Position numbers and translations under genes: made by a program. Source: Niveispirillum cyanobacteriorum (GTDB taxonomy: Bacteria; Pseudomonadota; Alphaproteobacteria; Azospirillales; Azospirillaceae). Taken from it: a stretch of DNA of 64,000 bases. Below are positions 8,076 to 61,099 of the stretch, piece after piece. Every line of letters begins with the position of its first letter. The first letter of the stretch is position 1. A model generated the notes under the pieces. The model had not been told where the DNA came from. It did no database searches and saw nothing but the letters and a program-made list of their open reading frames with translations. The stretch spans positions 2,598,501 through 2,662,500 of the forward strand of contig NZ_CP025611.1 of the NCBI RefSeq assembly GCF_002868735.1, written 5' to 3'.

Positions 8076-8228
8076 TCAGAGCAGCGTATTCAGGAACATG
8101 GCGATGAAGGCGGCGACGGACAGGACCGTGGCGGCTTCGATCGCGCTGACACCGTCCTTCAGGAAGGCACCGAAACCGGACAGGACTTCATCAGCGTCAT
8201 GAGCGGCGGCGTTGATATAGGCGGACAT
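8076..8228 (-). CDS. 50-aa small membrane peptide, second of a paralogous pair
   Basis: 50 aa, starting MSAYINAAAHDADEVLSG and ending FIAMFLNTLL. AGGAG lies 7 nt before the ATG. The N-terminal half is acidic and soluble. Residues ~29-50 form one uninterrupted hydrophobic helix ending at the very C-terminus with no trailing charge, like a tail-anchored or bitopic micro-protein. It aligns without gaps to the other 50-aa product at 8277-8429, best over the last 21 residues (shared E, A, V, L, A, L, L positions). Both genes probably share the sigma-54 promoter at 8471-8487. Function unknown. Confidence 0.75.
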   Translation of the reverse strand: MSAYINAAAHDADEVLSGFGAFLKDGVSAIEAATVLSVAAFIAMFLNTLL

Positions 8229-8276: not shown

Positions 8277-8429
8277 TTACAGCATCACATGCAGGCTGAG
8301 CGTCATCAGGGCGCCGATGGCCAGAACAGCGACCGCTTCGACCATGTCGGCGGCGGTCGGCAGCGAGGCGAAGAAGCTTTCCACAATGTTGTCGTCGGCG
8401 GCTTCGATCTGGTTCGTCAGGCTGGTCAT
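8277..8429 (-). CDS. 50-aa small membrane peptide, first of a paralogous pair
   Basis: 50 aa, starting MTSLTNQIEAADDNIVES and ending LMTLSLHVML. The ATG at 8429 is chosen over that at 8435 because GGAG sits 6 nt before 8429 but abuts 8435. With that start, both paralogs are exactly 50 residues. Acidic N-terminal half, then a hydrophobic helix from ~30 to the last residue. The expected sigma-54 transcript would have a leader of about 30 nt. The second gene follows after a 48-nt gap. No similarity to a known toxin, holin or bacteriocin was recognised. Confidence 0.75.
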   Translation of the reverse strand: MTSLTNQIEAADDNIVESFFASLPTAADMVEAVAVLAIGALMTLSLHVML

Positions 8430-8470
8430 CTTCATCTCCGTGGGTTCGTGTCTTTCGATGACCCAGTATC

Positions 8471-8487
8471 AGCAAAGGGTGTGCCAA
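8471..8487 (-). promoter_or_regulatory. Sigma-54 (RpoN) promoter of the twin-peptide operon
   Basis: Read on the minus strand: TTGGCACACCCTTTGCT. It matches the -24/-12 consensus YTGGCAC-N5-TTGCW, with the invariant GG and GC exactly 10 nt apart. The predicted transcription start is near 8460, about 30 nt before the first peptide ATG. Sigma-54 promoters require an ATP-dependent enhancer-binding protein; candidate sites lie at 8602-8649. Confidence 0.75.
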
Positions 8488-8601: not shown

Positions 8602-8649
8602 TGTCCGAAAATGAACAGATATGGGTGCCGAACTGTCCGCCAACGGACG
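8602..8649 (-). promoter_or_regulatory. Paired upstream activator dyads for the sigma-54 promoter
   Basis: On the minus strand the distal dyad (8649-8634) reads CGTCCG-TTGG-CGGACA and the proximal one (8617-8602) TGTTCA-TTTT-CGGACA. Their centres are 32 bp apart, about three helical turns. They lie 117-165 bp upstream of the -24 element, the usual range for enhancer-binding proteins. The same pair, in the same order, precedes the sigma-54 promoter at 59595-59611. Another dyad, CGACG-ACTA-CGTCG, is at 8581-8594. The remainder to 8779 shows no gene. Confidence 0.55.
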
Positions 8650-58473: not shown

Positions 58474-59550
58474 TCAGGCGGGATGGGCCCCCGCCTTGCC
58501 CGCCAGCTCCAGCGCCTTGGCCAGTGCATCATCGGCAGGCGTTTCCACATCCGGGGCCACGCCCTGGCCCTCCCAGCCCCAGTCATTATCGGGGTTGTAG
58601 GTGCGGCCCACGGGGATGAAGGCGCCGAAACGCTCACCCACCGGTTCGACCCCGCCATAATGGCCTGCACCCGCCGTCTTTTCCCCTACCAGGGTGGCGC
58701 GCTTGGTACGCTTGAATGCCAGGGCCAGATGTTCGGCGGCGGATGCGCTGCGCCGGGAGGTCAGGTAGTAGACGGGCACGGATTGCAGGCGCATTTCCGA
58801 CAGGTCGGGGGTGACCGTGTGGTCCTGCCGCACAATGCCGTCGGGGGCGACGCGGTTGACCAGAGAGGCGAAGGGCGGCATGCCGCGCGCAAAGGCCGAG
58901 GCGCGGGTATCCATGCGGACCAGAGTGGTTGGCTGCGCATAGAGCAGGGGCAGGATGGCATCCATCTCCGCCAACCCACCACCCCGGTGTGGGCGGGCAT
59001 CGATGATCACGGCCTTGGCCTTGCCGGCATTGTCCAGCAGGAAGCCTCGCGCCCGGGCGATCATCCCCTCGTCCCCCATAAAGGCGTTGAAACGCAGATA
59101 GGCGACATCGCCGATCATCTTTGTCTCTTCCAGACCTGGCGGGCCGCTTGCCTTCGTGCTGGCCGGCGCGTCGGGGGCCGGTCTGCGCGGGGCGCGGCTG
59201 GCGAAAACCTCCTGCGGGGCCAGACGCAGATGGCCATCCTTGGCCACAGCCTGCAGGTCGGCGGTGACCCTTTCCCCAAAGGCGACAGGGTCGGTCAGGT
59301 CGGCATAGGCATCGGCTTCTGCCTTCTGACGCAGCAGTGTGGCGTAACGGCTGCCGATATCGGGAAAGACGAAGTTGTTCTCCAGACTGTCGGCCAGATC
59401 GCGCAGCACGGCCTGACGTTCCGTCCTGTCCATGGCCTTCACCGGTGCCGTCGCCTGTGCGCTGTCCGGTGCCGTCTGGGCCAGGGCGGGCAGGGTCAGG
59501 GCGCTGGTGGCGGCCAGGGCGAGGGCGAGGAAATGGCGGCGCTGCATCAT
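58474..59550 (-). CDS. S41-family (C-terminal processing-like) peptidase
   Basis: 358 aa from the ATG at 59550 (GGAG 8 nt upstream); the next codon is also ATG. Twin-Arg-bearing signal peptide ~1-25 (MMQRRHFLALALAATSA), so periplasmic or lipoprotein-free secreted. S41 core: GDVAYLRFNAFMGDEG, AVIIDARPHRGGGLAEMDAIL, then TSRRSASAAEHLALAF with the nucleophile region, and ATLVGEKTAGAGHYG. No PDZ domain is evident, so it resembles the shorter tail-specific protease relatives. Controlled by a sigma-54 promoter at 59595-59611. Confidence 0.85.
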   Translation of the reverse strand: MMQRRHFLALALAATSALTLPALAQTAPDSAQATAPVKAMDRTERQAVLRDLADSLENNFVFPDIGSRYATLLRQKAEADAYADLTDPVAFGERVTADLQAVAKDGHLRLAPQEVFASRAPRRPAPDAPASTKASGPPGLEETKMIGDVAYLRFNAFMGDEGMIARARGFLLDNAGKAKAVIIDARPHRGGGLAEMDAILPLLYAQPTTLVRMDTRASAFARGMPPFASLVNRVAPDGIVRQDHTVTPDLSEMRLQSVPVYYLTSRRSASAAEHLALAFKRTKRATLVGEKTAGAGHYGGVEPVGERFGAFIPVGRTYNPDNDWGWEGQGVAPDVETPADDALAKALELAGKAGAHPA

Positions 59551-59594
59551 GGGGCTTTCTCCGGTCCGGTGCCTTGTGGCATGGGACGGGTCAA

Positions 59595-59611
59595 AGCATC
59601 CGGCGTGCCAG
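59595..59611 (-). promoter_or_regulatory. Sigma-54 (RpoN) promoter of the S41 peptidase gene
   Basis: Minus-strand CTGGCACGCCGGATGCT matches YTGGCACG-N4-TTGCW except for one T-to-A change. The key GG and GC are exactly 10 nt apart. The transcription start is expected near 59583, about 33 nt before the ATG at 59550. Leader length and layout mirror the twin-peptide promoter. Confidence 0.7.
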
Positions 59612-59649
59612 GGCATAAGCATCTGTAATCGCGCACTTTTCATGATAGC

Positions 59650-59700
59650 AGGCACTGTCCGTTTCTGAACGTATGTCCGAAATCGGACAGTGCCTGTCCG
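59650..59700 (-). promoter_or_regulatory. Paired upstream activator dyads for the sigma-54 promoter
   Basis: On the minus strand: a distal symmetric dyad TGTCCG-ATTT-CGGACA (59689-59674), then after 2 nt a proximal CGTTCA-GAAA-CGGACA (59671-59656). A further CGGACA half-site is at 59700-59695. The proximal dyad ends 47 bp upstream of the -24 element. The whole cluster is also bracketed by 12-bp inverted arms AGGCACTGTCCG/CGGACAGTGCCT (59650-59661, 59684-59695). Same site order as at 8602-8649. Confidence 0.55.
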
Positions 59701-59701
59701 G

Positions 59702-61099
59702 TCAGGGCAGCAGCGGCGTGCTGTCGCTGGCCGGGCGCATCAGGTCGACCTGACCTGCGGCATTCAGGCTGAACAGCCAGACCATGGACTGGTGCTGGAA
59801 CTGCACCCGATAGCGGCGACGGTCGCCACCGTCGGGCGTGGTGGCCTTTTCCATCAGGCGGATGGATCGGACGGGGCCGGCAGCGGTCAACAGGGCGCTG
59901 CCAAAATCATTGAAGAAGCCTTGCATGCCATTGCCCGCCTCTTCGGTGAAGCCGGTCTTGTCCATGGTGCCCCTGGCGGCACTGTCCAGGGCATGGCGCA
60001 GCCGTTCGGCCATTTCCGGCCGGTCATCGGGCAGCATCCGGGCGCGGTCGGGCATATAGCGGGCGGCCACCCCATCGGCCAGCATCGGATAGAGCCAGCG
60101 CTGATTGGTCATAACCATGATGGTCAGCCGGTCGTCGGGAAGGCGCAGGATATCGGCCAGGGCCGGCCCGCCGCTGTGCCCCACGGCCACATGGCCCAGC
60201 AGGTCACGTTTGGTCCAGCCGATGGCGAAATCACCCGGCTTGCCAATGCTGAAGGGGGGCACCATCCACAGGCGCTGCCACGTGGCGGCGGGCAGGGCGT
60301 CGCCCTTGTCGATGGCCTGGGCAAAGCGGACCAGATCATTCAGGCTGGTCAGCAGGCCGCCGGCGGCATAACCGGCGGGCGTATAGCCGAAATCATCGCG
60401 GGCCTGCCGACCGTCCCGGAAGACATGGATGCCCGCGGCCCGGTCTGTCCAGGTCCCGTTCGTCTCCGTGGAAAAGCCGCTTTCCACCATGCCCAGCGGG
60501 GTTAGCGCCCAGGTGCGCAGGGCAGCCGGGAACGGTTCGCCCGACAGTTTTTCGATCAGAGCCTGCAGAACCACGAAATCGGTGAAGCCATAGCGTGACC
60601 GGCTGCCCGGTTCATAGGCCAGCGGGGTCTTCATGGCCGCCGCCACGATATCGGCGGTGGTGGCGTCGGGCCCCAGGCCCAACCGATCCTCCAGCCCCGA
60701 AGAGTGGGTGGCCAGCTGCCGGATGGTGATACGCGACCAGCTGTCGGGTGCGTCGGGGAAATGGCGGCGCAGATCGTCATCCAGTGACAGCTTGCCCGCC
60801 TGTTCCAGCCGGCCCAACGCCACACCGGTCAGCATTTTTGTAGCCGATGCGATCTGGAACGTGTGGCTGGGTTCCAGGTTGGTGCGGGCAAAGGCGTCGG
60901 CGACGCCATAGGTCGCCATTTTTTCGACCTTGCCGTCCCGCACCACGGCCAGCGCAACGCCCGGTGTGTGGGTACGCTGCATAAAGCCCAGAATGTAATC
61001 ATCCACCCCATCGGCCAGGGCGGCGGGAACGATCAGGCTGGCGGCGGTGGCCAGCAGCAGGGCAAGGCGGCGGAAGGGGCGGCGGGCGGGCAAGGACAT
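59702..61099 (-). CDS. Secreted beta-lactamase-fold serine hydrolase
   Basis: 465 aa. Signal peptide ~1-29 (LALLLATAASLIVPAALA). Class C beta-lactamase/D-Ala-D-Ala carboxypeptidase-like domain: catalytic Ser-x-x-Lys in FQIASATKMLTGVALG, the Tyr region in SRYGFTDFVVLQ (YxN motif not canonical), and HSGG late in the domain replacing KTG (HVAVGHSGGPA). The C-terminal ~100 residues are beta-rich, as in many serine hydrolases of this group. Likely esterase or peptidase rather than antibiotic resistance. Its stop is 2 bp from the sigma-54 regulatory cluster of the next gene. Confidence 0.85.
   Translation of the reverse strand: MSLPARRPFRRLALLLATAASLIVPAALADGVDDYILGFMQRTHTPGVALAVVRDGKVEKMATYGVADAFARTNLEPSHTFQIASATKMLTGVALGRLEQAGKLSLDDDLRRHFPDAPDSWSRITIRQLATHSSGLEDRLGLGPDATTADIVAAAMKTPLAYEPGSRSRYGFTDFVVLQALIEKLSGEPFPAALRTWALTPLGMVESGFSTETNGTWTDRAAGIHVFRDGRQARDDFGYTPAGYAAGGLLTSLNDLVRFAQAIDKGDALPAATWQRLWMVPPFSIGKPGDFAIGWTKRDLLGHVAVGHSGGPALADILRLPDDRLTIMVMTNQRWLYPMLADGVAARYMPDRARMLPDDRPEMAERLRHALDSAARGTMDKTGFTEEAGNGMQGFFNDFGSALLTAAGPVRSIRLMEKATTPDGGDRRRYRVQFQHQSMVWLFSLNAAGQVDLMRPASDSTPLLP

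Follow-up and report, generated by a model that had tools for sequence, protein, structure and literature searches.

Two palindromic dyads and a sigma-54-type promoter stand upstream of an S41-family (IRBP-like) gene, which raises the question of what activator would recognize them and what else it would control. The gene (58474..59550, minus strand) encodes a probably periplasmic protein of 358 aa and lies in the window, meaning the whole 64-kb stretch of DNA analysed (C1:2598501-2662500), of a genome of 6,048,780 bases in five contigs. On the same minus strand, the promoter was located at 59595..59611 (CTGGCACGCCGGATGCT), the proximal dyad at 59656..59671 (CGTTCAGAAACGGACA) and the distal dyad at 59674..59689 (TGTCCGATTTCGGACA), the dyads being 44 bp and 62 bp from the promoter, respectively, and both inside a conserved block. 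A second set is found 51 kb away, where a perfect sigma-54 promoter (8471..8487, minus strand, TTGGCACACCCTTTGCT) is accompanied by a proximal dyad at 8602..8617 (minus strand, TGTTCATTTTCGGACA, 114 bp to the promoter) and a distal dyad at 8634..8649 (minus strand, CGTCCGTTGGCGGACA, 146 bp). This promoter precedes minus-strand genes for transmembrane peptides of 52 aa (MKMTSLTNQ..., 8277..8435, one of three strong copies in the genome) and 50 aa (MSAYINAA..., 8076..8228, one of four strong copies). All of these dyads and promoters were found where the initial annotation had read them.

Taken by itself, the promoter of the S41 gene is weak in its -12 element (ATGCT versus TTGCW, one mismatch), and a pattern of this type with at most one mismatch matched 4 times in the 64-kb window versus 2.9 expected. 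At this chance level, the putative promoter draws its support from conservation across genomes. The dyads gave 5 match rows at 4 distinct places in the window versus 0.04 expected. Two dyads together with TGGCAY-N5-RTGCT are retained upstream of the S41 gene in all five genomes having the gene, with an inter-dyad gap of two bases in three genomes and three bases in two, and amid three different upstream contexts as judged by eye. Alignment of the five upstream regions revealed invariant blocks including CTGTCC/CGGACA, CGGACA, TGGCA and TGCT; the dyads of the other genomes read TGTCCGGTTTCGGACA/CGTTCGGAAACGGACA or TGTCCATTACCGGACA/TGTCCGCCGGCGGACA. This five-genome conservation is the strongest evidence pointing to a functional S41 site. 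The RpoN promoter initially proposed at 59595-59611 thus holds as to its position and its conservation (5/5), but its -12 element is mismatched and carries no weight alone. The S41 gene was present in 5 of the 20 genomes examined, own genome included, with the other four copies at 71-94% identity, and is most likely a recruit, in part of the genus, to the regulon proposed below. A beta-lactamase-family gene at 59702-61099 was rejected as a member of the unit, since it precedes the S41 gene in only 2/5 genomes (by eye).

Genome-wide, the strict dyad (YGTYCRNNNNCGGACA) matched in 13 rows versus 15 in the reversed control and the relaxed dyad (TGTYCRNNNNYGRACR) in 65 versus 34; with strict rows no commoner than the control and relaxed rows weakly enriched, single dyads are hardly informative. 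In 6.05 Mb there are 47 distinct relaxed sites (TGTYCR-N4-YGRACA), and these form exactly five pairs within 100 bp, namely C1:521406/521423, 542491/542523, 543517/543549, 2607102/2607134 and 2658156/2658174, as compared with a mean of 0.035 pairs and a maximum of 2 in 2000 trials of random placement of 47 sites. The signal lies in the tandem pairs. A version of the genome scan for dyad pairs near RpoN promoters that had been suggested as a check thus gave these five pairs, with a sigma-54-type promoter downstream of every one. Single dyads at C1:1173936, C1:1345503 and C3:553992 lie inside long reading frames and were treated as chance occurrences. Perfect YTGGCAC-N5-TTGCW sites number 15 in the genome versus 1 in the control; dyads with at most one mismatch lie within 200 bp of three of them, the peptide promoters, and of none of the remaining 12. 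The exporter promoter and the S41 promoter are absent from these 15 because they end in TTGCC and ATGCT, respectively. Start-to-start spacing of the dyads differs, being 18 bp at the S41 gene, 17 bp at the exporter operon and 32 bp at the peptide operons. The shared order and asymmetry that had been noticed in the two pairs of the window proved not to be general: both exporter dyads are symmetric, and the S41 dyads of other genomes differ.

Three of the pairs (C1:542491, C1:543517 and position 8602 of the window) each stand before an operon of two or three ~50-aa peptides. A single C-terminal hydrophobic span was detected in the 15 peptides scanned and no leader was seen on the small peptides; among three scanned, there was neither a Pfam family at the cut-off nor a PEP-CTERM match in Pfam. 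When 82 family genomes were searched, strong matches to two peptide families were confined to the own genus, and any match was found in 11/82 genomes for family A3 and 13/82 for A2. Peptide operons with dyads and a sigma-54-type promoter occur in G000 (the own genome), G069, G070, G072, G073 and G074, and further in G068, G066, G067, G064 and G054, a count that has no denominator, as the survey of relatives took in dyad-bearing promoters only. In nearly all of these operons, 114-127 bp separate the proximal dyad from the promoter TGG. The loci scanned around the weak peptide matches of G071 and G075 showed no small frame behind a sigma-54-type element. At C1:457967 (G000, L018), a perfect sigma-54 promoter without dyads is followed by a similar transmembrane peptide (MSTMTFFAKRAARTNKV...LNILL) and, after it, a PspA-like protein (by eye); from this the peptide type seems common to a PSP-like operon.

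The remaining pair, C1:521406/521423, stands before an exporter operon encoding a 47-aa peptide, an HlyD/MacA-type adaptor, a LolD/MacB-type ABC ATPase and a MacB_PCD/FtsX permease. The 47-aa peptide has no Pfam family at the cut-off and no NCBIfam match. In NCBIfam, the adaptor best matches DarC (218 of 450 bits) and the ATPase DarD (277 of 375 bits) of the darobactin DarBCD system, and the permease best matches ADOP, with DarB second (148 of 700 bits); equivalog identity with DarBCD was rejected, all three proteins being under the curated cut-offs. Some five permease-like frames in tandem seem to extend the operon (~C1:523887-536374; L012, L046); the ones read to their ends are 813-829 aa with a similar N-terminal pattern, Pfam having been run on the first alone.

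An initial pattern search found the dyad-promoter arrangement of the exporter in 7/82 family genomes, all of the own genus, and an adapted pattern found it in 18/20 genomes versus 0/20 for the reversed control. In all 18, the two dyads are 17 bp apart, start to start, and 44-46 bp from the TGG of a TGGCAY promoter, the proximal dyad having one mismatch in 10/18. The promoter is followed in 18/18 by a frame of 44-71 aa with NPD[LFV]WL, which reads HPDLWL in G070 and G072. Absence of the sites from close relatives would have spoken against the initial proposal; the S41, exporter and peptide promoters all turned out to be conserved.

A candidate activator was found outside the window at C1:831953-833371, an NtrC-type response regulator (RR) whose gene overlaps a sensor kinase gene and whose domains are PF00072 (REC), PF00158 (sigma-54 AAA+) and PF02954 (Fis HTH). 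RR orthologs of at least 75% identity are present in 17/82 family genomes, the next being at most 46% identical among the matches listed; the own RR is 97% identical to that of the unclassified strain AAP38 and 93% identical to that of Niveispirillum lacus, which makes Niveispirillum or a near relative the probable host. Counts among the 20 related genomes are 17 for the RR ortholog, 18 for the exporter promoter and 17 for the adaptor; all three are absent from the congeners G071 and G075. The exceptions are G072, with promoter and adaptor and no RR ortholog detected in an assembly 93% complete in ~860 contigs, and G063, with RR and promoter and no adaptor match. In seven further genera (one genome each), the adaptor was not found. 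The RR lies ~310 kb from the exporter in the own genome, so the link between them rests on relatives; in G066 and G055, the RR gene and the dyad-exporter-promoter unit are neighbours and point away from each other.

The initial annotation had recommended looking for a bEBP gene with its own copy of the motif, and the RR gene answers to this description: a close variant, TGTACGTTTCCGGACA, lies at C1:833395-833410, 24-39 bp ahead of the RR start codon. A dyad of the form TGTNCR-N4-YGNACA is located within ~110 bp upstream of the receiver-domain start in 16/17 RR orthologs. The RR-side dyad (L054-L070) is mostly TGTACG-N4-CGGACA, whose TGTACG half differs from the target promoters, and this site may serve autoregulation or be weaker. 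Among the RR-family rows inspected, the C-terminal recognition helix is similar (LGLTRAALYRRMEKHGL-like). Crude hydropathy was used to scan 16 kinases, namely a copy 99% identical to the own kinase together with 15 relatives: two close N-terminal spans were detected in 13/16 and one span above threshold in those of L120, L124 and L129, so that the kinase may have two spans joined by a very short loop.

The association of RR and site extends across phyla. The receiver domain was used to scan genome contigs, the best 80 of at least 350 relatives were taken, and these were split at a similarity gap into a family of 67 loci (L108-L174) and a control of 13 (L175-L187, at most 39% identity). The loci come from Alpha- and Gammaproteobacteria, Bacteroidota, Myxococcales, KSB1 and others; since about 19 of the 67 belong to Chryseobacterium and its kin, the cross-phylum counts are not independent. 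Strict dyads occur within ~560 bp upstream of the RR in 27/67 family loci versus 0/13 control loci, and 32/40 strict sites in the family loci fall in this RR-upstream region, which makes up 3% of their bases. A relaxed form, TGTNCR-N4-YGNACA, chosen after the results of the cross-phylum sigma-54-element scan, is found just upstream of the RR in 49/67 loci (two or more copies in 34) versus 0/13, with a background elsewhere in the loci of 0.008 per 560 bp; 28 of the 37 close pairs are spaced 21 bp. No dyad lies within 560 bp of the RR in 18/67 loci, six of which have a strict dyad farther upstream. A relative of the adaptor is encoded in 57/67 loci, in 56 cases on the opposite strand and upstream of the RR, versus 1/13 control loci, at 22% identity. 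A TGGYAY-N5-TTGC element near the dyads was matched in only 16/67 loci, none of them of the Chryseobacterium type, so that sigma-54 control is no more than a candidate mechanism across phyla. In many of the 23 promoter regions inspected, dyads, ~40 bp, a sigma-54-type element and the adaptor follow in that order.

From the observed pairs, their promoters, their conservation, their co-occurrence with the RR and the cross-phylum adjacency of RR and site, we consider it very probable that the NtrC-type RR uses the dyads at 59656-59689 as its upstream activating sequences, and that it would govern a sigma-54 regulon of five promoters, likely an envelope module. The phosphorylated RR would bind the tandem TGTYCR-N4-YGRACA pair and, once bound, drive sigma-54 RNA polymerase at the exporter operon, the three operons of ~50-aa single-span membrane peptides and the gene of the S41 (IRBP-like) protein. 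Sequence comparison, through the five pairs, their conservation and a bEBP gene with the motif, thereby supports the initial idea that one enhancer-binding protein would serve the S41 gene along with the small membrane peptides. That the dyads are mere chance palindromes is scarcely credible: strict single dyads are indeed as common as in the control (13 versus 15 rows), but the pairing, spacing and conservation of the sites argue against it. It is also improbable that they bind another of the nine further bEBPs, e.g. an NtrC- or NtrX-like one. The genome has 13 Sigma54_activat matches, ten of them strong bEBPs, and cross-genome profiling covered the RR alone of these ten, which leaves this reading some room; against it, the distribution of the RR largely matches that of the sites in 20 genomes, and the RR gene has dyads beside it, also across phyla, with a similar C-terminal helix.

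What the RR regulon would do is a separate matter, on which the S41 protein bears. It matches Pfam PF03572 at 2.5e-24 and PF11918 at 7.3e-7, and among proteins of solved structure retinol-binding protein 3 (IRBP) is closest to it in sequence. S41 proteases have a catalytic Lys 25 residues after the Ser; in this protein Ser270 is present and residue 295, where the Lys would be expected, is Ala, so that the Ser and Lys +25 arrangement of C-terminal processing proteases was not found. Because of this Ala and the nearness to retinol-binding protein 3, the protease label given in the initial annotation is doubtful. Two readings of the targets, both compatible with the regulon, were weighed. In one, the peptides would be envelope-stress effectors, either PSP-like stabilisers of the inner membrane or small pump subunits with a tuning role, and the S41 protein would bind hydrophobic ligands instead of acting as a protease. 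This proposed role is favoured by the relationship to retinol-binding protein 3 and by the finding of a single C-terminal span in each of the 15 scanned peptides; it may be objected that strong matches to the two peptide families occur in the own genus only. The membrane-stress reading is rated highest because a similar peptide precedes the PspA-like protein at C1:457967, and it is held as a tentative, quite conceivable account.

In the other reading, MacB/FtsX would export the peptides, the S41 protein would trim or bind them and the kinase would sense them, forming a signalling loop that would be a Gram-negative counterpart of peptide quorum sensing. Peptides and exporter have a common site type, a peptide frame opens the exporter operon in 18/18 genomes, the best named NCBIfam relatives of adaptor and ATPase, below cut-off, belong to darobactin export, and the peptides are diverse and multicopy. 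We nevertheless consider such a loop, as well as its likeness to quorum sensing, unlikely: the peptides have a C-terminal hydrophobic span and no leader was seen, a similar peptide stands before a PspA-like protein at a dyad-less sigma-54 promoter, the kinase seems to be almost without a periplasmic loop, and the catalytic Lys of the S41 protein appears to be missing. Taken whole, a cross-phylum system of peptide communication or peptide immunity is likewise rather doubtful. In such a system, membrane-inserted peptides would be extracted and exported by the MacB/FtsX pump, a kinase sensing inside the membrane would read the pump load, and TGTYCR-N4-YGRACA sites would provide positive feedback together with sigma-54. 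Bacteria of the Niveispirillum type would then have expanded the system by several peptide operons and by an IRBP-like protein that binds peptides or lipids.

Returning to the five-promoter regulon, its organization resembles that of NtrC-type sigma-54/bEBP regulons in the -24/-12 promoter, conserved in the own family and weak at the S41 gene, in the tandem dyads ~44-150 bp upstream and in the REC-AAA-Fis regulator. It differs in that the RR has GAFTDA in place of GAFTGA in the sigma-54 contact loop (read at L045:7951-9372). Among the 67 family loci (L108-L174), this loop reads GAFTDA in 44, GAYTDA in 2 and GAFTGA in 16, with 5 unmatched. The RR falls below the cut-off for each of its 25 best NCBIfam families. 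The best match is the model of PrsR (TIGR02915) from the PrsK/PrsR system of PEP-CTERM at 362 bits, and identity as PrsR was rejected against a cut-off of 502.6; the kinase scores 74 of 300 bits on the PrsK model.

Bce-type systems (BceRS-BceAB) combine an FtsX-like permease with a two-span kinase of very short loop and an OmpR-type RR that controls the transporter. Here, too, an FtsX-like permease is encoded with two-component genes in relatives, ~310 kb apart in the own genome; the kinase may be two-span and short-looped, judging by crude hydropathy. Unlike the Bce type, the RR is of the NtrC/sigma-54 type and not OmpR, an adaptor protein belongs to the module, and the module occurs in Gram-negatives. 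By analogy, the envelope module would most likely use through-membrane sensing to respond to membrane-active compounds, peptides for example, and export or clear these, working like a Bce-type sensor-transporter but under sigma-54 control.

A literature search found no published description of the dyad. An in-silico survey (PMC12316311) reported sigma-54 enrichment at COG0577 FtsX-like permeases in Gammaproteobacteria, Opitutia and Bacteroidia, and terms the association a first link; in the portion of that paper available to us, no activator, enhancer site, peptide or S41 partner is named for these permeases. Neither this portion nor the literature search yielded a described regulator for a sigma-54-linked FtsX-like exporter. 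As far as that portion indicates, the sigma-54 link of the exporter module had been a statistical trend (PMC12316311), and the present analysis gives this widespread module a concrete candidate regulator and DNA site, with small membrane peptides and an S41-type protein as candidate co-regulated partners. With regulator, site and partners as candidates, the question of the exporter substrate becomes directly testable with few promoters and one deletion.

A further observation concerns the sphingomonad loci L158, L160, L171 and L172, in which an extra sigma-54-type element ends in CATGCT or CATGCA. It has a weak -12, like the S41 promoter, and precedes the stretch leading to the adaptor promoter, and a short reading frame comes after it in L158 and L160.
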